From: Flavobacteriales bacterium
Lineage (GTDB): Bacteria; Bacteroidota; Bacteroidia; Flavobacteriales_G; JALEGO01
Reading direction: 5' to 3'
Assembly (NCBI GenBank): GCA_020629755.1
Contig: JAHDCS010000021.1
Coordinates: 1-37,282, forward strand
DNA: 37,282 bases
Part shown: piece by piece, positions 2,769 to 36,917 of the stretch
Layout: each line of letters begins with the position of its first letter
Numbering within the stretch: position 1 is the stretch's first letter
Program-made: the position numbers and the translations under genes
Notes under the pieces: model-generated
Seen by the model: only the letters and a program-made list of their open reading frames with translations
The model's database searches: none
What the model was told of the DNA's origin: nothing

Positions 2769-5537
2769 TCACACCACCACATTCACAATTTTTTTAGGTA
2801 CTACAATGGTTTTTTTAGGTGTTTTTCCCTCAAGCCATTTTTGAGCTTGCTCTGAGCTTAGCACACGTTCTTCTACTTCTTTCGGGTTTAAATCAGCTGG
2901 CAGTTCAAGTTTAAAACGCATCTTGCCATTAAAGGACACCGGGTAGTGAATCGAGCGCTCAACAAGATAAGCTTGGTTAAACGATGGCCAAGACGCAAAG
3001 TGCATCCCCCCAGAAAAACCAAGAGCCACATAAAGTTCTTCGGCTATAAAAGGCGCAAAAGGAGAGACCAACACCAACAGATCTTTAAGCACCTCTTTAG
3101 AGTGGCATTTTTGCTCGGTGAGTTCATTTACGGCAATCATCAGCGCGCTTATGGGTGTGTTAAAGCTATTGCGCTCTAAGTCTTCAGAAATTTTCTTAAT
3201 GGTTTTATGCAAAGTTTTTAAAGAGGCCTCATTGGGTTTTTGGTCATTTACAATAAGAGCATCCTCTTTATAGAATAAACGCCAGAGTTTATTTAAGAAA
3301 TTATGTACTCCATTAATGCCCTTTACATCCCAGGGTTTGGCCTGTTCAAGCGGGCCTAAAAACATTTCATAACACCGCAAAGTATCGGCTCCAAAACGCT
3401 CTACAAGTTCGTCAGGGGTTTGCACATTGTACTTGCTCTTTGACATTTTCTCTACTTCTGAGCCGCACAAATAGCTTCCGTCATCCTCCAAAATAAATTC
3501 TGAAGCGGCATATTCTTTACGCCACTTTTTAAATTTTTCAAGATCTAAAACATCGTTATCACAAAGAGAAATATCAACATGTAAGCGTGAGGTCTGATAG
3601 TCTTTTCGCTTCGAAAAGCTTACAAATTTTTTAGAAATCTTATCGCGGTATACAAAGTTACTCCGCCCTAAAATCATGCCTTGGTTAATGAGTTTTTTAA
3701 AGGGTTCTTCAAAACCAATAAACCCGATATCGTATAAAAACTTACACCAAAACCGTGCGTAAAGTAAATGCCCTGTGGCATGTTCACTCCCCCCAATATA
3801 CAAATCAACTTGCCCCCAGTAATCAGCCTTTTTGCGATCAACGAATGCTGTATTATTCACAGGATCCATGTACCTAAGATAATACCAAGATGACCCAGCC
3901 CAACCAGGCATAGTATTGACCTCCATCTTATCACCGTAGAAGGTTTTCCAGTCCTCTTTTTTAGCGCGCGCTAAAGGGGGGTCACCTTCTTTGGTAGGCA
4001 AATAAGCATCTACATCAGGAAGCTCTATTGGCAAGTCGCTTTCAGCAATAGTATTGGCAATTCCGTTTTCATAATAAACCGGGAAGGGCTCTCCCCAATA
4101 CCGTTGACGTGAAAACACGGCATCTCTAAGCTTATAATTCGTTTGGGCTTTTCCAATACCCATAGAATCTATTTTTTGTGTCGCTAATGCAATGGCTTTT
4201 TGTGGGGGGATGCCATTTAGAAAATCAGAGTTTTTTAAAAGCGCTTTCTTTTGATCATAGGCTTTTTCTTCTAATGAAACACCTTCAAAAATCTCTAGGA
4301 TATCAATAGAGAAGTGTTTAGCAAAATCATAATCGCGCTGATCACCAGCAGGTACAGCCATAATAGCACCCGTGCCATAGCCCATCAACACATAATCGCT
4401 AATCCAAATCGGGATTTGTTTATTTGTAAAGGGATGGATGGCATAGGCGCCTGTAAACACTCCTGAGATGTCTTTAACATTAGCTTGGCGTTCTCTTTGA
4501 GATTTGAGTTTGCTTTGTGTTTTGTAATCAGCAATAGATTCTTTTTGTGCACTGGTTGTAATGTGATCGACTAAAGGATGTTCAGGTGCAAGCACCATAA
4601 AACTTACGCCAAAAATAGTATCGGGACGTGTAGTGTATACCTTAATGACATCTGAATGGCTTTGAATTTTAAAATCAACTTCTGCACCTGTAGACTTGCC
4701 AATCCAGTTGCGTTGTTGCTCTTTCAGAGCGTCTGGCCAATCGATACCTTCAAGACCTTTGAGTAGGCGTTCTGCATAGGCGGTAATTCGCATGATCCAC
4801 TGCTGCATGTTTTTTTGCACCACTGGATACCCTCCTCGTTCTGACTTGCCGTCTTTTACTTCATCATTGGCTAAAACAGTGCCCAGTTCTTCACACCAAT
4901 TTACAGTGGTATCAGCCAAATAGGTTAATCGATAACAACTTAAAATGCTTTCTTTTTTAAGGGCATCAAATTTTTCCCACTCATCTGCTGTGAAGACCAC
5001 TTCACAAGAATGACTAGCCAAAACATCAGCATTGCCCTTTGTAGAGAAAATCTTTATTAAATGCTCAATAGGTTCTGCTTTTTGCGTCTTATTATTGTAC
5101 CACGCATCGTAGAGTTGAGTGAATATCCACTGGGTCCATTTATAGTAGTTAGGGTCTGAAGTACGCACCTCTCTTGACCAGTCAAACGAAAAGCCAATAG
5201 TATCTAATTGCTCGCGGTAACGCCTAATGTTTTTTTCAGTGGTTATTTTTGGATGTTGTCCGGTTTGAATAGCATATTGTTCAGCGGGCAAACCAAAAGA
5301 GTCGTAACCCATAGGGTGAAGCACATTAAACCCTTTATGGCGTTTGTAACGGGCGTAAACATCTGAAGCAATATACCCTAATGGATGGCCAACATGTAAT
5401 CCTGCGCCAGAAGGATACGGAAACATATCTAAGACATAGTACTTAGGTTTTTCAGAAAAGTCTTCTGCTCTAAACACCTTGTTTTTAGCCCAAGTCTCTT
5501 TCCATTTTTTTTCTATTGTCTGAAACGGATATCCCAT
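2769..5537 (-). CDS. leuS: Leucyl-tRNA synthetase
   Basis: A 922-residue class I aminoacyl-tRNA synthetase that charges tRNA-Leu in the cytoplasm. The HIGH motif is HVGH at about residues 48-51, the KMSKS motif is at about 697-701, and the CP1 editing domain lies between them (TTRPDTIFG is its threonine-rich motif). It is longer than the roughly 860 residues of the E. coli enzyme because of inserts near residues 145-205 and just before KMSKS; such inserts are usual in Bacteroidota LeuS. The start MGYPF is chosen over an ATG three codons upstream because a TACCTTTG promoter box overlaps that upstream codon. It is transcribed alone. Confidence 0.97.
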   Translation of the reverse strand: MGYPFQTIEKKWKETWAKNKVFRAEDFSEKPKYYVLDMFPYPSGAGLHVGHPLGYIASDVYARYKRHKGFNVLHPMGYDSFGLPAEQYAIQTGQHPKITTEKNIRRYREQLDTIGFSFDWSREVRTSDPNYYKWTQWIFTQLYDAWYNNKTQKAEPIEHLIKIFSTKGNADVLASHSCEVVFTADEWEKFDALKKESILSCYRLTYLADTTVNWCEELGTVLANDEVKDGKSERGGYPVVQKNMQQWIMRITAYAERLLKGLEGIDWPDALKEQQRNWIGKSTGAEVDFKIQSHSDVIKVYTTRPDTIFGVSFMVLAPEHPLVDHITTSAQKESIADYKTQSKLKSQRERQANVKDISGVFTGAYAIHPFTNKQIPIWISDYVLMGYGTGAIMAVPAGDQRDYDFAKHFSIDILEIFEGVSLEEKAYDQKKALLKNSDFLNGIPPQKAIALATQKIDSMGIGKAQTNYKLRDAVFSRQRYWGEPFPVYYENGIANTIAESDLPIELPDVDAYLPTKEGDPPLARAKKEDWKTFYGDKMEVNTMPGWAGSSWYYLRYMDPVNNTAFVDRKKADYWGQVDLYIGGSEHATGHLLYARFWCKFLYDIGFIGFEEPFKKLINQGMILGRSNFVYRDKISKKFVSFSKRKDYQTSRLHVDISLCDNDVLDLEKFKKWRKEYAASEFILEDDGSYLCGSEVEKMSKSKYNVQTPDELVERFGADTLRCYEMFLGPLEQAKPWDVKGINGVHNFLNKLWRLFYKEDALIVNDQKPNEASLKTLHKTIKKISEDLERNSFNTPISALMIAVNELTEQKCHSKEVLKDLLVLVSPFAPFIAEELYVALGFSGGMHFASWPSFNQAYLVERSIHYPVSFNGKMRFKLELPADLNPKEVEERVLSSEQAQKWLEGKTPKKTIVVPKKIVNVVV

Positions 5538-11346: not shown

Positions 11347-12033
11347 CTAATCCCAAGAGTAAGGGATATCCGGGTTATAATTAGATTGCCAGACCATTGA
11401 TTGTCGATTCAAATAGTATTGTGCATCATAATTTCCGCCACCGACATCTTTACCAAGCCAGATAGTGGCGTGAAAATCTTTATCGATAAAAATACCCCCA
11501 CCACAACTTAAATTATTGACAATATCTTCTTTTCCAACAAAATCAGGCGGGCCGTACGTAGCTCTTAAATATGCTTCAAGATCTGTAACTCTATAAATAT
11601 ATTGATCGCCATTTTTTCCGCTAATGGTTTTGCCGGTTATATTGGGTATTTTGTACCCAGAAGTATTAAGCATATGGCTTACTCTTATGGCGCAAGTTAG
11701 ATTGAATGCAGGAACATTTAACATATTCAGCTTAACATTACCACCAATTTCTTCTGCCAATTCTTCGAAACCAACTTCGTTATAAAACGGATAATTCTCT
11801 ATTAGCAATTCAAAATCTGTAGGCGCAGATGGGTTATTTTGTTCAAAATAACAAATGGCGTTATAAGACTCATGATCCATTGGGGTGGGCTTAGGAGAGC
11901 TAAAGTCATGCTCTATTAAAGCGTACGGGTTAGAAGAAGACTCATCCGATTGACTTGTACAGCCACTGTTTGAGCAAATCATCAGTAAAAAAAAGCAAAG
12001 AGCAATACTAAATAGACTATTTGTTTTTATCAT
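11347..12033 (-). CDS. Tae4-like peptidoglycan amidase, predicted exported
   Basis: A 228-residue protein resembling the type VI amidase effector Tae4 family (DL-endopeptidases that cut peptide crosslinks of peptidoglycan). Family-like features are IGGNVKLN, LTCAIRVSHMLNTSGYKIP with the likely catalytic Cys114, GKNGDQYIYRVTDLEAYL, YGPPDF, and FHATIWLG with the likely catalytic His188. Unlike typical T6SS effectors it has an N-terminal export signal (MIKTNSLFSIALCFFLLMIC, then SNSGC), perhaps a lipoprotein with Cys25. The start is chosen because a TACCTTTG box lies just upstream; the longer frame to 12132 would run through that promoter. anmK follows. No T6SS gene is seen in the window. Confidence 0.78.
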   Translation of the reverse strand: MIKTNSLFSIALCFFLLMICSNSGCTSQSDESSSNPYALIEHDFSSPKPTPMDHESYNAICYFEQNNPSAPTDFELLIENYPFYNEVGFEELAEEIGGNVKLNMLNVPAFNLTCAIRVSHMLNTSGYKIPNITGKTISGKNGDQYIYRVTDLEAYLRATYGPPDFVGKEDIVNNLSCGGGIFIDKDFHATIWLGKDVGGGNYDAQYYLNRQSMVWQSNYNPDIPYSWD

Positions 12034-12037
12034 AATG

Positions 12038-12068
12038 CAAAGGTAAATACTATACCTACTAGAGTCAA
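12038..12068 (-). promoter_or_regulatory. Promoter for the Tae4-like/anmK operon
   Basis: Minus strand: TTG at 12066-12068, a 20-base spacer, then TACCTTTG at 12038-12045, both as in the Bacteroidota -33/-7 promoter. It is the best-formed promoter in the window and ends four bases before the ATG. Confidence 0.65.
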
Positions 12069-12114
12069 GTATTTTAAGGCACAGGCTTTTATAGGCAAAG
12101 GGGGCTAAAAAAAC

Positions 12115-12122
12115 TATATTTG
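12115..12122 (+). promoter_or_regulatory. Promoter -7 box for the acyl-CoA dehydrogenase
   Basis: TATATTTG matches TAnnTTTG, 15 bases before the ATG at 12138. It would make a short leader and excludes the in-frame ATG at 12120, which overlaps the box. Confidence 0.55.
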
Positions 12123-12137
12123 TATCAAACAACTAGA

Positions 12138-23537: not shown

Positions 23538-24314
23538 TCATTCTTCTTTTTTTGCCATTTGCCATATAGCATCCATTTCTTTAAGGCTCATCTTTTTGAG
23601 AGATTTATTTTTTAATAAGGCATGATTTTCAATGTAATTAAAACGGCGGATAAATTTTTTGTTTGTTTTCTCTAGAGCCATTTCAGGGTCTATATCCAAA
23701 AAACGTGCGTAATTAATCAATGAAAAAAGCACATCACCAAATTCACTTTCAATTTCTTGTTTGTCTTCTCTTTGTATGGCCTGTTTTAGTTCATCAAATT
23801 CTTCATTGCATTTTTCTAATACCTGAGTGGCGTTTTCCCAGTCAAACCCCACAGATTTAGCTTTATCTTGTATGCGAAATGATTTAACCATTGGGGGCAA
23901 TGCACTGGGGACTCCTGAAAGAATGCCTTTTTTTGTACCGCCTTCTTGTTTTTTTATTTCTTCCCAGTTTTTTTTAACCTCCTGGGCATTATTCACAGAA
24001 GCATCTCCATAAACATGCGGGTGTCGCCTAATTAATTTAGCACATAAATGACTAATCACATCTGAAATATCAAAGGCCTTTTTTTCACTTGCTATTTTGG
24101 CATAAAAGATAATGTGTAATAAGACATCTCCAAGTTCATTTTTTATTTCTTCTAAATCATCATTTGATATTGCTTCAGATAGTTCGTAGACTTCTTCTAT
24201 GGTGAGTTTTCTTAAGGAGGCAATGGTTTGTTTTTTATCCCAGGGGCACTTTTCTCTTAACTCATCCATGATCAGTAAGATTTTCTGAAAAGACTCTTTT
24301 TCTTTTTCTTTCAT
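23538..24314 (-). CDS. mazG: Nucleoside triphosphate pyrophosphohydrolase MazG
   Basis: A 258-residue tandem-MazG protein that hydrolyses NTPs and dNTPs to NMPs and pyrophosphate, removing damaged nucleotides. Domain 1 has CPWDKKQTIASLRKLTIEEV, YELSEAI and ELGDVLLHIIFYA; domain 2 has ESEFGDVLFSLINYARF and the Glu/Asp metal sites. KNWEEIKKQEGG lies between. Length is typical (about 260). It begins 5 bp after the GH5-like gene and is probably the third gene of the GT2-GH5-mazG transcript. Confidence 0.95.
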   Translation of the reverse strand: MKEKEKESFQKILLIMDELREKCPWDKKQTIASLRKLTIEEVYELSEAISNDDLEEIKNELGDVLLHIIFYAKIASEKKAFDISDVISHLCAKLIRRHPHVYGDASVNNAQEVKKNWEEIKKQEGGTKKGILSGVPSALPPMVKSFRIQDKAKSVGFDWENATQVLEKCNEEFDELKQAIQREDKQEIESEFGDVLFSLINYARFLDIDPEMALEKTNKKFIRRFNYIENHALLKNKSLKKMSLKEMDAIWQMAKKEE

Positions 24315-27320: not shown

Positions 27321-27353
27321 AACTAGTACAGTGGTTATTTAACTAGTTTTTTT
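27319..27353 (+). terminator. Rho-independent terminator after ruvC
   Basis: AAAACTAGT (27319-27327) and ACTAGTTTT (27342-27350) form a 9-bp stem with a 14-base loop, followed by T to 27353. It starts inside the ruvC stop codon and covers the stop codon of the convergent metalloprotease. Confidence 0.6.
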
Positions 27354-29695
27354 ACTGACCGAACTTGTTGTTTAGTTTCAAACACGAATACATAAACGCC
27401 TTTTGGCCAAAGATTTGTTGAGATTTGCCCCTGAGAAGTAATAGAACGATGCTCTATTTTTTGACCCAGGTTGTTATAAACGCTAATCATCAGTTGTTCT
27501 TTAGCTTTATTTTCAACAATAATATGATCTAAAAAAGGGTTAGGGTAAATAGTGATTTGATCATCTAACAAATCCGTTTCATTTACATGACTAGGCGGAA
27601 GAACTACATTTTGGGTTAAAGAGTCAGAGGTCAAAAAAGACCAAGTTTCACTCCAATCTGAGGTATCTGTGTTGTGAATGGCTCTCACTCGCCAAAAGTA
27701 CCAAGTGCTGTCTTGTAAATTGTTTAAAGCGTGCTCGGTGTCTTCTGAAAATGGATGAGGTGCTATAAATGGATGAGTGCTTTGTTGGAGTAAAGCACTA
27801 TTAAAAGTTAGAGCAGTATCTACTTCTAGCGCGTAATAATTGGCGGCATCTACACTTTTCCAATTTAACATCACATTTTGCCCCACATGATCGCTTAAGT
27901 TTTCTGGAAGATGGAGTGTTGGAGTGTTATCAAATGTGCCAAACAGATGAACATTGTCTAAGAATAAGTTGTTGCCGCCCTTTGGGGTAAACTCAAATTT
28001 AATCTGAAAACGTTCATTTAAAAGGTAGCTCGGAACAGAGATTTGATGCGAAGACCACTCTGTAGAATCAGCGGGTAAAAAAGCAATGTTATCTAGAGTG
28101 TCTCTTGTAGATAAAAAAGACCCCACTCGGTAATACACTGCTGTCCAGTTTAGGCCGCAATCTCCAGATACAAGCACCCGAAGTATGTCTCTATTTGATG
28201 TATTTTGTTGCGCAAACGCATAATTAAAAGAGATTTTAGCAGAGGTTAATCCGCTTAAATCAGCAGCAGAAGAGTACAGATTAATTTTTGAAGAGATATC
28301 ATGGTTAAAGTTATCATAAAAGATGCTTTTTGAACTGTTGTACCCAATAGAAGAATGAATTTGAAAAGTTGTTTCATTATGATAATCTGCTATCCATCGA
28401 TTAGAAGGCAGTGTATTAACAGATTCAAAATCTTCAAGATATGGGGGCCAAAATTCTGAAGGGTTTTCAACCAGTATAAAAGCGTTAAAATCTGCACTTA
28501 AATTATCTGATGCATTCGATACATCAATGCCTATGTCGTATAATCCAGCATAAGGATACACAAGGCTTATGTCATTTTGTTGTTCAGAAATAAACAATGA
28601 AGAATCAGCCTGCCAGGTTCTTTCACAAACACCATAATAAGAGTTGTCAGTTAGGGTTAAGGTGTCAGAAGCACAAATAATTTTTCTATCTGGAGAGACT
28701 GAAACGGTACTGAGTTCTGTGACACCTGTTGCCACTAAATTGTTTATAGAATAGAGATTATTTCTTTGGGCAATTGATGAATTTAGTAAAGCTTCCATTC
28801 TTTCAGCTTGGCCGTTGGTAAACATTTTTGAGCAAAATGAATACTCCATATAATTTTCAACATTATCTAAACTACCACAGCTTTCACCCTCTAAAGTACA
28901 ACTGCTCCATCCTATAGACAATGGCGTATCACTAACCCCATCATCCATTTGGCAATTATCGGGCTGACCAGGACTGTTTGAACCACCCCAAAGATGATCT
29001 AAATTTAACCAGTGCCCAATTTCATGGGTAAGTGTTCTGTCGTTTTCACCAATATAAGAGGCACTACAAAAAATCGCATCGCTCATGGGCTGATTGTCTA
29101 CCCAGGCAGGTAAAAATGTGAAGCCCGCAGTGTTTTCACCAACGTTTTTGCCGATGTAGATATTTAAATACTTTTCGCGAGGCCATTGGCGATTTTCCGT
29201 CCAGCTATTGTAATAATTGTGAGGCGTATTGGTCTGACTTGTATTGTAACGAACAATACCATTCGTAGGATTACCCTGTGGGTCAATTTTTGCAAGTCTA
29301 AATTCAAAATTAGGGTTTCCGATATGAGATTTAAAGGTGTCTAAAACATCATCTAGATCAGTGTTTAAAGCCTGAAAATCAAGGTTTAATCGCTGCATTT
29401 GGCCTGTAATTACATCGTCAGATAAATTTTCATTGCCATTTTGATGCAAAATATGGAACACGACAGGGATGATGTAATCAGATGTTTCACAAGAAGATTT
29501 TAAAAATGTTTGGGGGGATACAAATCCATTTAAAAAAGAATTAAACGCTTTGTTCTTTTCTTTTATCTGTTCTAATTTGCTTGGATGTGAATGCGCTATG
29601 TCTTCAAGATAACTATAGGTCTTACAATGTTGAGAAACACCAAATAATGTAGAAAAAGCAGTGAAAATAAATGTGAGAACAAACTGCTTACTCAT
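27335..29695 (-). CDS. Secreted M43-type metalloprotease with T9SS tail, paralogue 1
   Basis: A 786-residue protease predicted to be exported by the T9SS. Signal peptide (MSKQFVLTFIFTAFSTLFGV, then SQ), then an M43 (cytophagalysin/pappalysin) domain with zinc motif His224-Glu225-x-x-His228 and His234 (THEIGHWLNLDHLWGG) and a Met-turn in VENYMEYSFCSKMFT. A PKD-like region is followed by a jelly-roll domain (about 425-585, SGDCGLNWTAVYYRVG), an FN3-like domain (about 595-690, WYFWRVRAIHNTDTSDWSET) and a type A sorting domain (ITIYPNPFLDHIIVENK; WPKGVYVFVFE). It is the downstream member of a tandem pair; its ATG overlaps the stop of paralogue 2 by one base (TAATG), implying coupled translation. 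Confidence 0.92.
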   Translation of the reverse strand: MSKQFVLTFIFTAFSTLFGVSQHCKTYSYLEDIAHSHPSKLEQIKEKNKAFNSFLNGFVSPQTFLKSSCETSDYIIPVVFHILHQNGNENLSDDVITGQMQRLNLDFQALNTDLDDVLDTFKSHIGNPNFEFRLAKIDPQGNPTNGIVRYNTSQTNTPHNYYNSWTENRQWPREKYLNIYIGKNVGENTAGFTFLPAWVDNQPMSDAIFCSASYIGENDRTLTHEIGHWLNLDHLWGGSNSPGQPDNCQMDDGVSDTPLSIGWSSCTLEGESCGSLDNVENYMEYSFCSKMFTNGQAERMEALLNSSIAQRNNLYSINNLVATGVTELSTVSVSPDRKIICASDTLTLTDNSYYGVCERTWQADSSLFISEQQNDISLVYPYAGLYDIGIDVSNASDNLSADFNAFILVENPSEFWPPYLEDFESVNTLPSNRWIADYHNETTFQIHSSIGYNSSKSIFYDNFNHDISSKINLYSSAADLSGLTSAKISFNYAFAQQNTSNRDILRVLVSGDCGLNWTAVYYRVGSFLSTRDTLDNIAFLPADSTEWSSHQISVPSYLLNERFQIKFEFTPKGGNNLFLDNVHLFGTFDNTPTLHLPENLSDHVGQNVMLNWKSVDAANYYALEVDTALTFNSALLQQSTHPFIAPHPFSEDTEHALNNLQDSTWYFWRVRAIHNTDTSDWSETWSFLTSDSLTQNVVLPPSHVNETDLLDDQITIYPNPFLDHIIVENKAKEQLMISVYNNLGQKIEHRSITSQGQISTNLWPKGVYVFVFETKQQVRSVKKLVK

Positions 29696-32067
29696 TATTC
29701 AATAATAAGCTTTTTGGTAAAACTCCCTTTTTGACCTTTAAGTCTTAAAATATAAATGCCACTTGCTAAATGCGCTGTGGAAAAGCCAGAAGCATAAACA
29801 TCTTTAGAATCGGGTAAAGAACCAGAAAAAATGGATTCTATCTTTTTACCAAATACATCAAAAAGGTCAATCTCAATAGACTGATTGTCTTTAAGTTGAA
29901 TCATTATTTGAACCCATTCTGATGCCGGATTAGGATGTAACATCATTTTATTGTCGTACGCAAAGCTGTGTTGTGATAGCAAGGGGTCTACTTGAAAACT
30001 CCAGGTCGGTGACCAATTGCCTGCAATAAAACTTTCTATTGCTCTTACGCGCCAGTAATAGGTAATGCCTTTAGATAAGGCAGTAGGCACTTCATACTCT
30101 GTATCGATATTATTGTGCGTGTTATCTATATAGTTTTTTGATCCTTCTTGTAGAAAGGGGCTGTTGAATGAAGGAGTGGTGTCTAATTGGTATTCATAAC
30201 TATCAACCGGGTCGTTTAAGGCTTTCCAATCAAGAGTTACAGAATATTGCTGCAATAGCGCCAAGTTTGAAGGACTTTCTAAAACGGGCTCTGAAGAAAA
30301 GAGGCCGTCAATGTTTAGATTGTCAATGTAAATATTGTTTCCGCCATCTGATTCAAATTCAAATTTGATTAAACCAAACGAAGAAAGCTCTTGAGAGGCA
30401 ATGGAAAAACTAAACGATTTCCATTCTGTGCTGTCTTGAGGCACAAAATTTGAAGTTGTGTTTTGAACAGACATTAAACTAGATCCAGCTCTAGAGAGTT
30501 TCAATATCCATGTTTTTCCGCAATCAGGAGAGTAATAGGCATTGAGCTTATCTTGATTAGCTGTTATTTTTCTAGCAAATGCTGCTTTAAAGGAAACACT
30601 TGCAAAGGTCATATTGCCAAGATCAAACAATGGGCTGATAAGCTCGTCGAACTGTTCTTGACCAGTCACAGAAAAATTATTTAACCACACACTACCCGTA
30701 GAATTATACCCCACTGAAGATGTTTCCCAAGAGGTGTTGTCATTTGTAACATCTATTCTGTCCCACTCAAGACTTGGGATTGTTACAGATGAAAAGTCTT
30801 CACTAATAGGAGCGGGGCTGCCTGTGTTTTCAATGACCCTAATAATGTTATTCTTGTTTAAACTTAAAGAGCCACTAGTGTTTTCAACAGTAAGATTAAT
30901 ATTTGCAAAGCCAGTATTTTCTAAAATTACTTCAGGGTTTTGACTAGAAAATGTACTATTAGACGCTGAAGTAGACCAATTCCAGGTACTTGGATTGTGG
31001 TAAGAAAGGTCATTAAACACAATAGTATCGCCAACACATCCCACATATGAAGAAGGTCTAAAGTCAGCTAAACAAAGATTATCGTTGCCATCAGTGCCAG
31101 TAGCTTGTAGATTAGACGCTGACCAAAGGTTGTTTCTGCCCGCCACTGAAGAAGTTAGCGCCGAGCGCATTCGAGTTGCTTGCCCTTGAGTAAACATATG
31201 TGTGCAGCTGGCATAATTCATAAAATTTTGAACGTTATCTAAGGTTCCGCAAGACGAACTAGAGCTATTACATCCCCCAAAATTACCAATACAATTTGGC
31301 GTATCAGCCACTCCATCATCATCAGAACAGGCCGTTGGATCTTCGACCTCACCATTTCCCCAGGTATGCGGTAAATTAATCCAATGCCCAACTTCATGTG
31401 TGAGTGTTTTGCCATCTGAATTAGAACTACCGATAGTACCCACAGCGGTGTGGCGCACGATAATACCGTCTATAGAAGGGTTAAAATTAGCGATTGAAGG
31501 GTAATAGGTATATCCTAAGGTAATTCCGCCTGATGCGCCAGCATCTATAGTACGTACCACCCAAATGTTTAAATATTTGTTTCTGGGCCATTGTTGTATT
31601 TTAGAGTTATCGCCTGCATTAGAAGTTAAAGGCGTTTGCCAACGATTAATCCCTTTGGTGCAATTTCCTTGTGGGTCTTTTTGAGCGAGTTTAAACTGAA
31701 TTTCAGCATCTGCGGCAATGCCCGAAAATTGACTAATCACATTTGAAAAATCGGCATTGGTTTTTCTGAAATCTTCATTTAAAATGCGCATGGCATCGTA
31801 GACCTGCTCATCGCTAATGTTTTCTGGACCATTTTCGTGTAAAATGTGAAACACAACCGGAATCGTATAAATCGGGCCAGACGCTTTTTGAAGTAAATCA
31901 GACTGATATTTATCTTCTAATTTTTGCTTTTCATCGCTGATGTACTTTTCTAAGTTAGGATGTTGGTTTAAAAATTGTTTTTCAAAATAATTCAATCCAC
32001 AAGGGGCTTGCGCTAAGGCAAAACTTAAGAAGAAAAAACTTGTATAAAAAGAGAATAAAGATTTCAT
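29695..32067 (-). CDS. Secreted M43-type metalloprotease with T9SS tail, paralogue 2
   Basis: A 790-residue paralogue of the downstream gene with the same domain order. Signal peptide (MKSLFSFYTSFFFLSFALAQ), M43 domain with His224-Glu225-x-x-His228 and His234 (THEVGHWINLPHTWGN) and Met-turn in VQNFMNYASCTHMFTQGQA, then a jelly-roll domain (AFARKITANQDKLNAYYSPD), an FN3-like domain (YYWRVRAIESFIAGNWSPTW) and a T9SS sorting domain (MLHPNPASEWVQIMI; LASGIYILRL). The zinc site falls at the same residue number in both copies, consistent with tandem duplication. It is the first gene of the pair, with a leader of about 50 bases after TATATTTG. Confidence 0.92.
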   Translation of the reverse strand: MKSLFSFYTSFFFLSFALAQAPCGLNYFEKQFLNQHPNLEKYISDEKQKLEDKYQSDLLQKASGPIYTIPVVFHILHENGPENISDEQVYDAMRILNEDFRKTNADFSNVISQFSGIAADAEIQFKLAQKDPQGNCTKGINRWQTPLTSNAGDNSKIQQWPRNKYLNIWVVRTIDAGASGGITLGYTYYPSIANFNPSIDGIIVRHTAVGTIGSSNSDGKTLTHEVGHWINLPHTWGNGEVEDPTACSDDDGVADTPNCIGNFGGCNSSSSSCGTLDNVQNFMNYASCTHMFTQGQATRMRSALTSSVAGRNNLWSASNLQATGTDGNDNLCLADFRPSSYVGCVGDTIVFNDLSYHNPSTWNWSTSASNSTFSSQNPEVILENTGFANINLTVENTSGSLSLNKNNIIRVIENTGSPAPISEDFSSVTIPSLEWDRIDVTNDNTSWETSSVGYNSTGSVWLNNFSVTGQEQFDELISPLFDLGNMTFASVSFKAAFARKITANQDKLNAYYSPDCGKTWILKLSRAGSSLMSVQNTTSNFVPQDSTEWKSFSFSIASQELSSFGLIKFEFESDGGNNIYIDNLNIDGLFSSEPVLESPSNLALLQQYSVTLDWKALNDPVDSYEYQLDTTPSFNSPFLQEGSKNYIDNTHNNIDTEYEVPTALSKGITYYWRVRAIESFIAGNWSPTWSFQVDPLLSQHSFAYDNKMMLHPNPASEWVQIMIQLKDNQSIEIDLFDVFGKKIESIFSGSLPDSKDVYASGFSTAHLASGIYILRLKGQKGSFTKKLIIE

Positions 32068-32121
32068 ATTACCGTGTTTAGTATGTTGTGATTTAAAGAC
32101 GAAACTTTAAAGCTGAGCTTA

Positions 32122-32129
32122 CAAATATA
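32122..32129 (-). promoter_or_regulatory. Promoter -7 box for the M43 pair
   Basis: TATATTTG on the minus strand matches TAnnTTTG, 54 bases before the ATG of paralogue 2. This is the longest predicted leader in the window; its content shows no clear structure. Confidence 0.45.
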
Positions 32130-32197
32130 AGTCCTGCAAGCTATTTAAGAAAGTATTCCTTAAATTTAAATCAAAATTCACCATCCCCCATAGGTTT

Positions 32198-32854
32198 ATG
32201 AGCGATATATACTTAACTCTTGATCAAGCAAAGGATTTTTGTCATAAAAGCGAAAGTACATTGCGAAGATTTGTGCGCAGTGCACTAAACGATAAAGCAA
32301 CCAAACACGCGATTAAAAAAAAGAAACTTAAAAATGGAGGCTATCAGTATTTAATCTCAAAAAAGATATTAGCTGAAAAGTACGGTATTAAAGGATCGTT
32401 AACGCCCAAGCCAAAACGCACTCAAACATCCCCCCAAAAAAACAATTTAACAAGTAAGCCTATCTCGGGATTAGCGATAAAAACGCTGCAAGACTATGTG
32501 AAAACTCTGGAGAGCCAATTAAAGGTTAAAGACCAACAGCTCAACGATCAAAGCCATCAAATCTCGGAACTTTTAGAGCGCGACAAAGAGAATCATTTAT
32601 TGCTAGAAAAAATAAATCATGCACTTATTAAATTTAGAATTCCTGAATTTATAGAAACACAAACAATTCCGATTCAAGCACACGATAATCAGACAGAACA
32701 GAGTCTAGAAGAGCTAAGAGAAGATCAAAACAGTTCTGTTTCTGAACAGGTCATTGAGAAAGCAGAAAATCCGGTGAAAAGCAAGGTAAAGAAAAAGAAA
32801 AAAAAGAAAAGAAAATCAAAGGCAAATTTTACAGAGTGGCTTGAACAATTTTAG
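32198..32854 (+). CDS. Putative DNA-binding protein: helix-turn-helix, coiled coil, poly-lysine tail
   Basis: A 218-residue protein I cannot name. The N-terminus (YLTLDQAKDFCHKSESTLRR through KYGIK, residues 5-65) resembles a MerR/excisionase-type winged helix-turn-helix. Residues 95-145 form a coiled coil (LQDYVKTLESQLKVKDQQLN; HQISELLERDKENHLLLEKI). After an acidic, Gln-rich linker the C-terminus is very basic (KSKVKKKKKKKRKSKANF). The layout recalls replication- or segregation-associated DNA-binding proteins of plasmids and integrated elements, but no plasmid genes are nearby. The last 14 bases overlap the Nudix gene. One GGGGGGAT motif (reverse strand) lies in its linker at 32428. Confidence 0.72.
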   Translation: MSDIYLTLDQAKDFCHKSESTLRRFVRSALNDKATKHAIKKKKLKNGGYQYLISKKILAEKYGIKGSLTPKPKRTQTSPQKNNLTSKPISGLAIKTLQDYVKTLESQLKVKDQQLNDQSHQISELLERDKENHLLLEKINHALIKFRIPEFIETQTIPIQAHDNQTEQSLEELREDQNSSVSEQVIEKAENPVKSKVKKKKKKKRKSKANFTEWLEQF

Positions 32855-33449
32855 AACCAGACTAGAAGAAAAACTAAGACTTCCTTTACCAAAAATCAGT
32901 TCATTTCAAAAGGTTGTTCCGCGATTAAGAGGAGGGATGAGAATTCCTGAAACAGCAAAAAAAAGCGCTGTTTTAGCTATTATTGAACAGGAGAAAGAAC
33001 AAAACAACATTCTTTTTATTAAACGAAAAAGCGGTCAATTTTCCCATGCCTCTCAAGTCGCTTTTCCTGGAGGTAAAAAAGAACAGTCAGATAAAGATCT
33101 TTTAGAGACAGCCTTACGTGAAACTAGGGAAGAAATAGGGGTGGAGATTGAGGAGTCACAAATTATTGGGCGTTTATCTAAGGTGTATATTCCAGTATCA
33201 GATTTCAGTGTTCAACCCTTTGTGTGCGTGCTTAAAAGACTCGATGGCTTTAAGCTTTCTATTGATGAAGTGCATTCTGTGCTTCGAGCAGACATTAGCT
33301 CTTTGAAAATCACTCATCCGCAAATAGAGCACAAGATGGGCCACACAATAAAGCCTGGGTTTTTAGGTTATTCGGTTAACAAAGAATTTGTATGGGGCGC
33401 TACAGCCATGATGCTCACCGAGCTTTTAGATGTTATTGATTCACTTTAA
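32841..33449 (+). CDS. Nudix hydrolase, CoA pyrophosphatase-like
   Basis: A 202-residue Nudix enzyme. LFIKRKSGQFSHASQVAFPG precedes the Nudix box FPGGKKEQSDKDLLETALRE then TREEIGV (residues about 75-101, with Glu94, Glu97 and Glu98 as metal ligands). The K/R-(x)-S-H-x-x-QVAFPGG form is that of the CoA diphosphatase (NudL/YeaB) group, which cleaves CoA or acyl-CoA to phosphopantetheine and 3',5'-ADP. The start is a TTG at 32841 inside the end of the upstream gene, giving a 14-base overlap and probable coupling. CoA substrate is family-based, not shown. Confidence 0.9.
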   Translation: MNNFRTRLEEKLRLPLPKISSFQKVVPRLRGGMRIPETAKKSAVLAIIEQEKEQNNILFIKRKSGQFSHASQVAFPGGKKEQSDKDLLETALRETREEIGVEIEESQIIGRLSKVYIPVSDFSVQPFVCVLKRLDGFKLSIDEVHSVLRADISSLKITHPQIEHKMGHTIKPGFLGYSVNKEFVWGATAMMLTELLDVIDSL

Positions 33450-33458
33450 TTTTATTAT

Positions 33459-36400
33459 TTGGGGAGGGTAAACCAAATATTGTTTGTTATTATTTGCTTT
33501 TTGATTGTGTTGAACACAAAGGGGATTGGCCAAGAAGTGGTGTATAAGTATGTAGATATTAAAAACATTACGTCACTAAATCAAAAAATAGATTCATTGA
33601 GTATCGTAGAAAATTCATTTGAGCTTTTGTGCGATGAAAAACCATTAGACAGGTCTAATTACACACTTTTTCCTTGGTCATCAACTCTTGTGATTACATC
33701 AGAGGTAAAATGCAAAAATATACGCGCAAAGTATATAACCTATCAGTTTGATTTTTCAAAGGCTTATACACATAAAGAGTTCGAAAAAATAGCGACACCA
33801 TCAGCGATAAAAGATCCTTTTAAGTATCAATTAGGACAGCCCGAGAAAAAAAAAAGGCTTTCATCTTTGTATAAATCGGGAAGTATTTCAAGATCTATAG
33901 GTATGGGCAATAAACAAGATGTTGGTGTTCAGTCGTCTTTAAATCTGCAATTAGAAGGCAAACTCTCTGATAATTTAAATATACGGGCTGCTATAACAGA
34001 TCAAAACATACCTGTTCAGCCCGATGGAAATACAACACAAATACAAGATTTTGATAATATTTTTATTGAGCTATACAATAAAAAACATGACCTAATCGCC
34101 GGAGATTATTACACAGAAAACTCAGAACCCTATTTCTTGAAATACAATAAAAAAGCGCAAGGGTTACATTACCGATACAACAACCAAAAAAATGTTAAAC
34201 TAGGGCTTGCCGCTGGTGCATCTAGAGGTAAGTTTTCAAGACAAACCATCACGCAAATCGAAGGAAAGCAAGGCCCTTACAGGTTAATAGGTTCTGAAAG
34301 TGAATCTTTTATTGTAGTGCTTTCAGGAACAGAAAAGGTATATATAGATGGTCAGCTGTTAACTAGGGGGCAAAATAGAGATTATATTATTGACTATAAC
34401 ACCGCGCAAATAACATTTACACCAAACATATTAATTACTAAAGACAAACGTATCATTGTTGAGTTTCAATACACCGACCAAAGCTATGCTCGATTACTTA
34501 CAGCATTTAATGTTGAACATAAGATAGATTCATTTAGTTATGCGGTTGATTATTTTTTGGAGACGGATTTAAAAAACCAAGAAATTAATGCAGGTCTGAC
34601 AGACGCGCAGAAGCTTTTTTTAGCGAGTCAAGGCGATCAGATTCAGTCTGCTGTTTTTTTATCAGAAGATTCTGTTGGGTATTCAGAAGAAAGGGTGTTG
34701 TATGAAAAAATAGACTCCTTAGGATACTCAGGGGTTTATAAATATTCCACAAACCCACAAAAGGCTGTGTATAGCGTTCGATTTTCTGAGGTTGGCGAAG
34801 CGCAAGGAATGTATAACAAAGTAAATAGCGCCGCAAATGGCAATGTATTTGAGTGGGTTAAACCAGACACTATTGGAGGGATGGTGATAAAAAAAGGACG
34901 TTTTGAACCTCTTGTGTTATTGCGAAGCCCTAAGCAAAATCAAATGGCACATTTTCAAGCCAAACAAAGCCATAAAAAAGGGTGGATAGAATGCCAAGGA
35001 GCACTGTCAAATCAAAACATTAACACCTTATCGCAGAATGATAAGGCTAATGATTTTGGCACTGCACTTAAAGCGTCTGCCTCTCAAAAGTTACTAGAAA
35101 GAAAAAATGCGCTTCTTTTTAACTATGCCTATGAGTTTAACCACAAAAATTTTAGACACATACAATGGTTTAGAGAGCCTGAGTTTTTGCGTAACTGGAA
35201 TATAACCCAACAAAACACCCAGTCTGAATTACATCATCATGTTGCTCAACTCGCTTATCTTGATACCCTTAAGCAAAATATATCTACTTATTCTTTGAAT
35301 CACTTGTCTTTAGGCGCTTTAAATTACAAGGGGTTTCAAAATAATATTACGCAAAGATTTTCAAAAAAAAGCCTTAAACTACAAGCTTTAAGTGGTTGGG
35401 TTTCATCTCGCTCAACGCTAGAGAATACTAACTTTTTAAGGCATCAATCTACCTTAGAAAATATATTTTCAAATACTTTATCTGTTGGATTAAGATCTGA
35501 TTTAGAACACAATATAAAAGCAGCCACCCAGACCGACTCACTAATGCCCAATGCCTATAGTTTTACAGATTTAAAACCCTATTTCTTATACCAAGATTCA
35601 TCGGGTAATCAACTGCAAATTGGATATATCTATCGGTCAGATCGGCATATAAAAAGCAATGTATTATCTCCGTTAAGTAAAGCACATAGTTTTGAAATAG
35701 CATCTAAAATAAGACAGCAAAAAAATCTTAAACTAGCACTTACCTCTACATTCAGAGATTTAAGTATACAAGATAAAGACGCAAATTTAACCCCTCAAAA
35801 AACCTTACTTAATCGATTAGAAAGCTCTTTTAGAGATAAAAAATCAGCGATGAATGCACAGTTTTTTTATGAGTTAGGATCAGGTTTTGAAACACAAAAA
35901 GAGTTTATTTATGTACAAGTAGCGCCAGGCACAGGAAACTATACCTGGGTAGATTATGACAGTTCTAATACAGCTGAGCTTTCTGAATTTGAAGTTGCTG
36001 TTTTTAGTGACCAAGCGAACTATATAAAAGTACTTAGGGATGTCAATGCTTTTGTACAAACAAAAAACAACCGCTTAAATCTCTCTTTGGCTGTTCTTCC
36101 ACAGAAGTGGATTTCTAACACAAAAAATAACATCATTAAAAGAGTATCAACAACAAGTAATTTTTCTATGGATTGGAAAACCACAGAAGAAAATTTGTGG
36201 CAAAGCAGTAACCCGTTTTTAATTAACACAAATGACACTCAAGTGGTTGGATATGTCTCGTCGATTCGAAATAGTGTGTTTTTTAATCAATCTTCAAGAG
36301 TATATAGTTTAACGTATAATCAAAGTAGTGCAGAAAATAAATTTTTAGCTAATAATGGTTTTGAGCAAAAACACGCATCAAGCCATCAGTTGGTATCTCG

Positions 36401-36917
36401 GTTTTCAAAATTCAAAAAATGGATATTTGAACACACCTACACCAGGGGCATTAAAGAGCAGGTAAATCTTTTTTTTACACAAAGAAATTACCAGATCAAT
36501 CGGTCTGAACAAGCATTTAAAATAAGCCACAGAGCAAATAAATACAACCGTGTGATCGTAGATTTTTTATGGACAAAAAACCAAAACAAACCAGATTTAG
36601 GAGGGCAAATAAGCACGCAATTAAACGGTGGTATTACGTATAGATACAGTAAAGCTAGAAGCATCCACATAGAAAGCAAGGCCTCAGTAGCCTTTGTGCA
36701 ATTCAGCAACACTTTGGGGCAAACCTTAAACAATAACTCGCCCATTGCATTTGAAATGCTTTCAGGCCTTCAGGTAGGCAGGAATTATTTATGGAATCTA
36801 AACATTCAAAGAACCCTAAAGAAAAAAACCCAGGTTAATATTTTATACAATGGCCGGCTTTCTGAAAAAACGAGCGCAGTACATAGTTTAACCGCTGAGG
36901 TGAGGGTGTTTTTTTAG
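33459..36917 (+). CDS. Large outer-membrane beta-barrel protein of unknown function
   Basis: A 1152-residue exported protein. It starts with a signal peptide (MGRVNQILFVIICFLIVLNT, then KGIGQ) from a TTG at 33459; a second TTG at 33480 follows a GGGGAGG at better spacing. Residues 100-350 contain repeated strand motifs (LEGKLSDNLNIRAAITDQNI; GTEKVYIDGQLLTRGQNRDY; IIDYNTAQITFTPN; RIIVEFQYTDQSYARLL). The remainder alternates short strands and polar loops, and the protein ends VRVFF, the aromatic C-terminal end of Bam-inserted barrels. It has no T9SS tail. The motifs recur in large Bacteroidota surface proteins, but I cannot assign a role. It follows the Nudix gene by 9 bp. Confidence 0.75.
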   Translation: MGRVNQILFVIICFLIVLNTKGIGQEVVYKYVDIKNITSLNQKIDSLSIVENSFELLCDEKPLDRSNYTLFPWSSTLVITSEVKCKNIRAKYITYQFDFSKAYTHKEFEKIATPSAIKDPFKYQLGQPEKKKRLSSLYKSGSISRSIGMGNKQDVGVQSSLNLQLEGKLSDNLNIRAAITDQNIPVQPDGNTTQIQDFDNIFIELYNKKHDLIAGDYYTENSEPYFLKYNKKAQGLHYRYNNQKNVKLGLAAGASRGKFSRQTITQIEGKQGPYRLIGSESESFIVVLSGTEKVYIDGQLLTRGQNRDYIIDYNTAQITFTPNILITKDKRIIVEFQYTDQSYARLLTAFNVEHKIDSFSYAVDYFLETDLKNQEINAGLTDAQKLFLASQGDQIQSAVFLSEDSVGYSEERVLYEKIDSLGYSGVYKYSTNPQKAVYSVRFSEVGEAQGMYNKVNSAANGNVFEWVKPDTIGGMVIKKGRFEPLVLLRSPKQNQMAHFQAKQSHKKGWIECQGALSNQNINTLSQNDKANDFGTALKASASQKLLERKNALLFNYAYEFNHKNFRHIQWFREPEFLRNWNITQQNTQSELHHHVAQLAYLDTLKQNISTYSLNHLSLGALNYKGFQNNITQRFSKKSLKLQALSGWVSSRSTLENTNFLRHQSTLENIFSNTLSVGLRSDLEHNIKAATQTDSLMPNAYSFTDLKPYFLYQDSSGNQLQIGYIYRSDRHIKSNVLSPLSKAHSFEIASKIRQQKNLKLALTSTFRDLSIQDKDANLTPQKTLLNRLESSFRDKKSAMNAQFFYELGSGFETQKEFIYVQVAPGTGNYTWVDYDSSNTAELSEFEVAVFSDQANYIKVLRDVNAFVQTKNNRLNLSLAVLPQKWISNTKNNIIKRVSTTSNFSMDWKTTEENLWQSSNPFLINTNDTQVVGYVSSIRNSVFFNQSSRVYSLTYNQSSAENKFLANNGFEQKHASSHQLVSRFSKFKKWIFEHTYTRGIKEQVNLFFTQRNYQINRSEQAFKISHRANKYNRVIVDFLWTKNQNKPDLGGQISTQLNGGITYRYSKARSIHIESKASVAFVQFSNTLGQTLNNNSPIAFEMLSGLQVGRNYLWNLNIQRTLKKKTQVNILYNGRLSEKTSAVHSLTAEVRVFF

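Follow-up and report, generated by a model that had tools for sequence, protein, structure and literature searches.

The wHTH gene and its neighbourhood

The window, meaning the whole stretch of 37,282 nucleotides that was analysed, is the entire contig C43 (1-37282) of a genome of 2.36 Mb (G000), which is distributed over 92 contigs and is 98.3% complete. An open reading frame on the forward strand starts with ATG at 32198, has a stop codon ending at 32854 and encodes 218 amino acids; the coordinates, length and layout given in a preliminary description of this DNA were correct. The frame at 32198-32854 is a real gene and more than a chance reading, because four intact homologues are known. 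Judged from the reading frame, these homologues and an AlphaFold2 model, its product is composed of a winged helix-turn-helix (wHTH) domain, a coiled coil, a Lys-rich segment and a C-terminal helix. The gene is present in a single copy in its genome, and its GC3 resembles that of the neighbours.

Pfam matches place it near genes for leucyl-tRNA synthetase, NhaB, a Mur-ligase-family protein, YgbB (IspF), RuvC, and PorP/SprF, a C25 peptidase and PorV (type IX secretion), a setting that bears out its earlier placing among chromosomal genes. A Glu/Leu/Phe/Val-type dehydrogenase, AnmK and a glycosyltransferase were also recognized. Part of the window proteins, including the wHTH protein, were scanned at E 1 and the others at E 1e-5. 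Rep_3, relaxase and partition families were not found among the 25 scanned window proteins (a set without 23538-24314 and 27335-29695). The divergent neighbour at 29695-32067 on the reverse strand is, by Pfam, an M43 metallopeptidase with a type IX sorting tail, and the 130 bp upstream of the wHTH gene (32068-32197) would offer a divergent promoter region. An M43-like frame was read in the same position in two relatives (G001 and G003), not in a third (G002).

Downstream, at 32841-33449 on the forward strand, lies a gene for a Nudix hydrolase resembling CoA pyrophosphatases. Its product matches PF00293 with 50.1 bits and PRK10707 (CoA pyrophosphatase) with 81.9 bits, under the cut-off of 134. 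With the possible TTG start at 32841, it overlaps the wHTH gene by 14 bases. In all four genomes of the GTDB family to which the window belongs (f1), a wHTH homologue stands just upstream of the Nudix gene, the distance from the wHTH stop to the Nudix start being -14 (window), 3, 12 and 0 bases. The coupling of the two genes that had been proposed therefore stands as regards this conserved tight spacing; the TTG start itself is unproven. The spacing suggests co-transcription, which need not imply a functional link.

The Nudix protein was found in 43 of the 46 genomes searched, and therefore what is specific to the lineage is the wHTH gene, not the Nudix gene. When 30 Nudix loci from the 43 genomes with a match were checked, the wHTH gene was directly upstream in the four f1 loci. 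At the other 26, the longest upstream reading frames (up to two per locus) begin differently; we take them to resemble, for example, 6-phosphofructokinase, RadA or N-acetylglucosamine kinase.

Distribution of the wHTH protein

Intact homologues occur in all four f1 genomes (the own genome included), which span three genera. The contigs of the three relatives are recorded as 'Flavobacteriales bacterium' MAGs, and their proteins are 49, 44 and 43% identical to that of the window. An alignment of the four proteins (A1) has a mean column identity of 57%. No homologue was found in any of the 38 genomes of the order outside f1 (4/42 for the whole order), and a search of 60 genomes, again with the own genome included, gave four matches, all in f1. 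In a sample of the class, 4 of 395 genomes matched; two of these belong to f1, and in the other two the match lies on small contigs (4.4 and 17 kb) bearing plasmid genes. One further match, in G194, was left unused, having 25 bits and four stops in frame.

Anatomy of the protein

The preliminary description had joined a DNA-binding-like head, a coiled coil and a nearly pure Lys/Arg tail in one protein. The AlphaFold2 modelling that it had proposed supports the head and the coil, predicting a winged HTH, a long coil helix and a disordered linker; the tail does contain a run of nine Lys/Arg residues and is not the end of the protein, since FTEWLEQF lies beyond it. The model was built from four sequences and has a mean pLDDT of 71.9 and a pTM of 0.32; because four sequences are few, it supports the types of domain only.

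The winged helix-turn-helix occupies residues 1-65 (32198-32392, forward strand), as indicated by alignment, model and homology to plasmid proteins. In blocks of 10 residues, pLDDT is 81-92 over residues 1-60. The core reads KSEST(L/I)RR and NGGY(Q/K)Y, and the residues invariant in A1 include L6, T7, A11, K17, S18, E19, S20, T21, R23, R24, N46, G47, G48, Y49 and Y51. The coiled-coil helix covers residues 91-145 (32468-32632, forward strand) by A1 and by the model, in which these residues form one helix with block values of 83-95 over 91-140 and 71 for 141-150. Among its invariant residues are Q107, V110, K111, D112, Q114, Q121, E124, L125, R128, D129, E131, N140, A142, L143, I144 and K145. 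The coil thus contains a conserved Q(L/I)xVKDxQ stretch and ends in a conserved R-D-x-E ... I-N-x-A-L-I-K; three of the invariant residues are glutamines at heptad spacing (107, 114 and 121). I148, P149 and E150 are invariant after the coil.

Residues 158-208 (32669-32821, forward strand) form a linker, predicted as disordered from its composition and from a pLDDT below 50 over 158-201, with the Lys/Arg-rich run at its end. The longest such run is 9 residues in the window protein, 7 in G001, 6 in G003 and only 3 in G002. The net charge of the linker is small, with 14, 14, 8 and 14 Lys and Arg against 9, 8, 6 and 13 Asp and Glu in the four proteins. The last eight residues, FTEWLEQF (211-218; 32828-32851, forward strand), are better conserved than the Lys/Arg tail before them and may be a short amphipathic helix acting as an anchor or a docking tip; the model has a short helix at 211-215. 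A209, F211, W214 and L215 are invariant, and the four C-termini read FTEWLEQF, FSDWLNQF, FSDWLSDLK and FSEWLNHLS, with the consensus F[ST]xWL. In the best of ten 11-residue windows, the hydrophobic moment of the tip is 0.59-0.62, a weak statistic that 0.2-7% of shuffles equal, and its net charge is 0 or -1, that is, neutral to slightly acidic. The tail pattern was found in 1 of 393 six-frame reading frames of at least 80 amino acids in a 392-kb sample of the own genome, this one being the window protein itself.

Family and fold searches

The protein had been called unassigned, and this holds at the level of families. Searches of Pfam, NCBIfam, PHROGs, PADLOC and PDB sequences with the window protein gave nothing above a curated cut-off or at E below 0.01. 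The best matches below threshold were an excisionase family of PHROGs (E 0.015) and Pfam HTH_17 (PF12728; E 0.12), for which the window protein scores 13.0 bits and the best of the four f1 proteins 16.8, the gathering cut-off being 27. A profile search of the PDB returned rows at chance level (best E 0.032), and Foldseek with the AlphaFold2 model gave no match at E 0.001 or below. With VIA-align, the top fold matches were Xis and BldC chains (Z 6.2-6.8), with many MerR regulators lower; RacA (5i44, Z 4.8) and Par of pSK1 (8csh, Z 4.3) are also present and neither stands out. The window protein and its alignment met no match in phages, plasmids and viral contigs. In a search of genome contigs, the single protein gave none and the alignment only the three relatives already known. 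The f1 homologue L003 gave none in phages and, in plasmids, one Dyadobacter plasmid (pNIV1, E 0.004) along with one insignificant row.

DUF536 (PF04394; gathering cut-off 20.7 bits), in which three glutamines are conserved according to PMC11500499, was not matched by the window protein at E 1. Of the four homologues only L003 exceeds the cut-off (26.0 bits), L004 reaching 17.7, and none of 395 genomes of the phylum matches at E 0.001. L003 aligns to model positions 2-19 only, so that just the first part of DUF536 resembles it. By a hand count along the hmmscan coordinates, its glutamines fall on model positions 3, 10 and 17, and those of the DUF536 protein of pKG6_1 (L136), also counted by hand, on 3, 10, 20 and 21; the three glutamines of the f1 family are spaced 7 and 7. 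Two DUF536 proteins of Latilactobacillus curvatus plasmids, from records named in PMC7117683, were compared. They contain an HTH, a coil with a (K/D/N)xQI stretch and an aromatic tip (KRWWKFW and KHWWQF), and one of them adjoins a Rep initiator; one of the two, L137, narrowly misses the DUF536 cut-off with 19.8 bits. Comparison of A1 with the two lactobacillar proteins by hhalign was insignificant (8.9%). Membership in DUF536 or in the RocS family is not claimed for the window protein.

Relatives on Rep_3 plasmids

Outside f1, the A1 profile met two contigs, each with a Rep_3 initiator (G379:C16 and G344:C288). The G379 protein used as a query led to plasmids of Spirosoma and Hymenobacter (an H. 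swuensis record, with 25% of the query covered, was not used), and L003 led to Dyadobacter pNIV1, as given above. A profile of the winged helix alone (residues 1-70 of the four f1 proteins) scored 30.6 bits against the G379 protein, 29.3 against that of Spirosoma, 34.7 and 41.2 against two of Hymenobacter and 38.3 against that of Dyadobacter; the best of 200 shuffles of each target gave 3.8, 6.4, 8.8, 3.6 and 9.5, respectively. Comparison of A1 with these five plasmid-type proteins by hhalign gave 97.9% and E 4.6e-13 (for one comparison) over 95 columns, which take in the wHTH and the first part of the coil; an earlier set of four together with the G344 protein had given 97.1% and E 6.3e-11 over 56 columns. 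By sequence, then, the winged helix of the window protein has a common origin with those of Bacteroidota proteins encoded on Rep_3 plasmids, and the likeness to plasmid-type replication or segregation factors noted in the preliminary description is well supported.

A Rep_3 initiator is found on all five records; it adjoins the gene in Spirosoma, Hymenobacter 5516J-16 and Dyadobacter, and lies one reading frame off in G379 and three genes off in H. monticola. The Cytophagales proteins (Spirosoma pSLIN08 Slin_7065, Dyadobacter pNIV1 KZC02_RS00090, Hymenobacter MUN84_RS22535 and MTP16_RS25820) are annotated merely as hypothetical, HTH-domain or DNA-binding. They have in common with the window protein the homologous winged helix, a similar start of the coil, the order of parts and an aromatic C-terminal tip. 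Unlike them, the window protein is chromosomal, with no Rep_3 among the 25 scanned window proteins, and ends in a Lys-rich linker and FSxWL. The five plasmid-type C-termini (RRSLWRRLFGR, RRSLWHRLFGR, KKTFWQRMFGK, KKRFWQRVFGK and RKSFWHRVFG) are basic and follow (K/R)x(F/L)WxRxFG, which may correspond to the residue pattern of the MinD/RocS membrane anchor, a likeness read from the pattern itself and from the wording of published accounts. Their hydrophobic moment, 0.41-0.50 in four of them, is unexceptional against shuffles (0.07-0.32 for the four without Dyadobacter), and in L050 the best window lies away from the tip. This Cytophagales plasmid family (L049 2048-2548, L050 3986-4534, L051 2584-3084 and L135 2451-2894), with its winged HTH, coil and basic aromatic tail by or near Rep_3, is possibly a partition or stability factor.

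G344:C288 was at first taken as a plasmid relative and then dropped. Its protein scores -1.0 bits with the wHTH profile against 9.5 for the best shuffle, and therefore its match is to the coiled coil only; used as a query, it met no plasmid at E 0.001. The protein (L014, 2100-2744, reverse strand) is a Rep_3-linked HTH/coiled-coil protein on the 4.4-kb contig. Its C-terminus reads like a transmembrane stretch, and it may be a DNA-to-membrane tether of another make.

The iterated word GGGGGGAT

The window contains 11 copies of the octamer GGGGGGAT, where 0.53 would be expected, and the word, with overlapping neighbours, tops the list of over-represented 8-mers (positions 3004, 4204, 5577, 10391, 10818, 13729, 20479, 22579, 26079, 29512 and 32428, for example). 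The last of these copies (32428-32435, reverse strand) falls inside the wHTH gene, where a variable linker joins the winged helix to the coil, and probably has no part in the system of the protein itself. The own genome contains 732 copies, about one per 3.2 kb, against 75 of a reversed control word. The word is found 11 times in the sister species (G001), 11 times in G002, 30 times in G003 and 3 to 90 times in the other 38 genomes of the order. In the own genome a T-tract of about eleven bases stands in front of the word, and the base after the word is G in 56% of cases; the word is part of a lineage-specific iterated motif consisting of a T-tract and GGGNGGAT.

De novo counts of 8-mers gave species dialects of this motif. 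GGGGGGAT was counted 129 times against 7.3 expected in 392 kb of G000 (score 43.6); in 140 kb of G001, TGGGTGGA was counted 28 times against 2.2 and GGGTGGAT, the dialect of this species, 20 times against 1.6 (scores 15.7 and 12.5). A weaker dialect, GGGAGGAT, appeared 16 times against 1.6 in 140 kb of G002 (score 10.1). The top words were unrelated, with scores of 5.6-7.4, in 291 kb of G003 and in samples of G013, G016 and G006, three genomes from another family of the order that are without the protein. From whole-genome counts and genome sizes, TGGGNGGAT occurs 292 times per Mb in G000, 127 in G001, 58 in G002, 20 in G003 and 4-34 in the other 38 genomes. In most of those order genomes, too, the reversed control is the rarer of the two (45 against 5 in G004, for example), and a moderate excess alone therefore says little.

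Of the 129 sites in the G000 sample, 120 are genic and 9 intergenic, the coding fraction by long reading frames being 0.96. A Chi-like polarity was considered and found weak, the G-richer strand carrying 72 sites and the other 57. The preliminary description had proposed GGGGGGAT as a binding site to be tried for the protein. The word counts across genomes led to rejection of this idea as unsupported: the word is abundant in its own species only, and the protein with its recognition helix is conserved in three relatives where the word is rare. Since G003 (85% complete, 6% contaminated) has the protein without the motif above background, the motif does not track the wHTH protein and is a separate finding. 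With its species dialects, it resembles an uptake-type signal or an iterated signal of another kind. A literature search on uptake sequences in Bacteroidetes returned no title on Bacteroidota uptake sequences among its matches.

A candidate chromosomal DNA tether

The most likely reading is that the protein is a chromosomal, plasmid-derived tether of DNA, made of one protein and comparable with Par, RocS and RacA, and we hold it with somewhat less than even confidence. The likeness rests on the architecture and on a relationship to plasmid proteins of putative function, which suggests a plasmid upkeep gene adopted by the chromosome. The protein would dimerize through its coil, and the winged helix would bind DNA at direct repeats, at its own promoter region or at dispersed sites. 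The Lys-rich linker and the FSxWL tip might then hold this DNA at the inner membrane or on a partner associated with the membrane, as has been proposed for RocS, Par of pSK1 and RacA (PMC11500499). Such a tether would act next to ParB, which the f1 genomes retain, in positioning or segregating the chromosome, and the Nudix gene would merely be co-transcribed. ParB_N matches occur in all four f1 genomes, so the wHTH protein is no replacement for ParB; SMC_N matches over the cut-off also occur in all four, the model meeting other ATPases as well.

RocS of Streptococcus pneumoniae is described in PMC11500499 as a chromosomal protein with a MerR-type wHTH, a coiled coil, DUF536, a flexible end and a C-terminal amphipathic helix, serving as a membrane tether for DNA; RacA and Par of pSK1 are given there as similar in build. 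This membrane anchor is shared by RocS, Par and MinD (PMC11500499, PMC13042908), and that of RocS resembles that of MinD and has a net charge of +2 (PMC13042908). The window protein has, by prediction, the N-terminal MerR-type winged HTH of such anchors (pLDDT 81-92 over residues 1-60, with Xis, BldC, MerR, RacA and Par among the matches) and a helix (91-145) in the place of their central, oligomerizing coil, so that its parts come in the order known from RocS. The basic MinD-like helix is missing, the amphipathic tip of the window protein having a net charge of 0 or -1 against +2 in RocS and MinD (PMC13042908). The absence of a DUF536 match, the non-basic tip and the other phylum set it apart from RocS. 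Par of pSK1 likewise combines a wHTH, a coil and a disordered C-terminal region with an anchor-like end (PMC11500499), but it is a plasmid partition system, and its fold match is no better than those of many MerR proteins. RacA of Bacillus subtilis, which has a MerR-like wHTH, a coil and a disordered end and anchors chromosomes (PMC11500499), is specific to sporulation and has DivIVA as its partner, and its likeness to the window protein is one of build and fold.

The tether is supported by the whole layout being kept in four genomes with the tip conserved behind a variable linker, by the modelled domains, by homology of the winged helix to Rep_3-plasmid proteins and by RacA and Par among the structural matches. 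The DUF536 score of L003 and the rarity of the tail pattern support it as well. Against it, RacA and Par are outscored by Xis and BldC, the window protein is without a DUF536 match, the tip is not basic, the linker has a small net charge and the moment of the tip is equalled by 0.2-7% of shuffles. With ParB and SMC_N in all four genomes, there is no evident need for a second segregation factor, and the operon-like pairing with a metabolic gene suits a regulator equally.

The main rival is accordingly a local transcription regulator, which we regard as possible and on balance rather unlikely: a MerR/Xis-like winged helix with a coil as dimerizer, acting on its own promoter, on the Nudix gene and possibly on that of the divergent peptidase, the Lys tail providing non-specific affinity for DNA and the tip contacting RNA polymerase or a partner. 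The conserved adjacency and tight spacing to the Nudix gene, the divergent promoter region, the best fold matches and the excisionase family as best PHROG would fit such a regulator. Yet the four 250-bp upstream regions have no 10-mer common to three of them, and their common 9-mers are of A and T only; the search for an effector-binding domain was negative, G002 has another divergent neighbour, and the homologous plasmid proteins sit by or near Rep_3 and not by Nudix genes. An unlikely explanation is a nucleoid-associated, DNA-bridging protein, in which the wHTH and the poly-Lys tail would bind with little specificity, the coil would bridge duplexes and the C-terminal helix would dock a replication or repair protein. 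Bridging agrees with the confidently modelled wHTH, with the resemblance of FSxWL to a short linear docking motif and with three proteins of the four having Lys/Arg runs of 6-9, but the run is not kept in G002, the linker charge is about zero in G003, and the conserved wHTH core suggests a specific site.

It is very improbable that the protein reads GGGGGGAT (a T-tract with GGGNGGAT) as a multi-site chromosome organizer or as part of DNA uptake. The three genomes with a dialect, which is strong in G000 and G001 and weaker in G002, all have the protein, and no such motif is atop the word lists of the three protein-less genomes. G003, though, has the protein without such a motif in 291 kb, its TGGGNGGAT density lies within the protein-less range, the wHTH core is nearly unchanged as the middle base and abundance of the motif vary, and the upstream regions of the four genes are without the motif save for a five-G variant in the window and GGGGGGAG in G001. 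The remnant of an integrated plasmid, with no current role, would explain the plasmid ancestry of the winged helix and the narrow distribution and was already disfavoured; it is the least credible of all, as the gene is intact over three genera at 43-49% identity with coil and tip conserved, has the GC3 of its neighbours, and is not accompanied by Rep_3, relaxase or partition families among the scanned proteins. The tether can also be put in a bolder form, which is doubtful: a Bacteroidota chromosomal one-protein anchor domesticated from a Rep_3 plasmid maintenance gene, which would be an analogue of RocS and RacA outside Firmicutes with a new type of tip (Lys-rich linker and FSxWL) and, at its boldest, would read the iterated T-tract-GGGNGGAT sites where species have them.

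To our knowledge, the means beyond ParABS and SMC by which Bacteroidota chromosomes are held and moved are little studied. If the tether is true, it would suggest that plasmid upkeep genes can become chromosome factors more than once, and the window protein would be a compact test protein for chromosome anchoring. If it is only a local regulator, the gene is an ordinary lineage-specific one. RocS illustrates that one small protein can be enough to hold a chromosome at the membrane, and the authors of that work pointed to the same build in plasmid Par (PMC11500499).

Other reading frames of the window

The M43 peptidase with its sorting tail is the second of two tandem long reading frames of similar build at 27335-32067 on the reverse strand, which lie beside RuvC. 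Downstream of the Nudix gene, a frame of 1152 amino acids (33459-36917, forward strand) has no Pfam match at E 1, and a similar frame is found behind the Nudix gene of G001. At 11347-12132 on the reverse strand, residues 146-198 (53 residues) of a 261-residue frame match Tae4, the Type VI amidase effector 4 (T6SS), with 41 bits.
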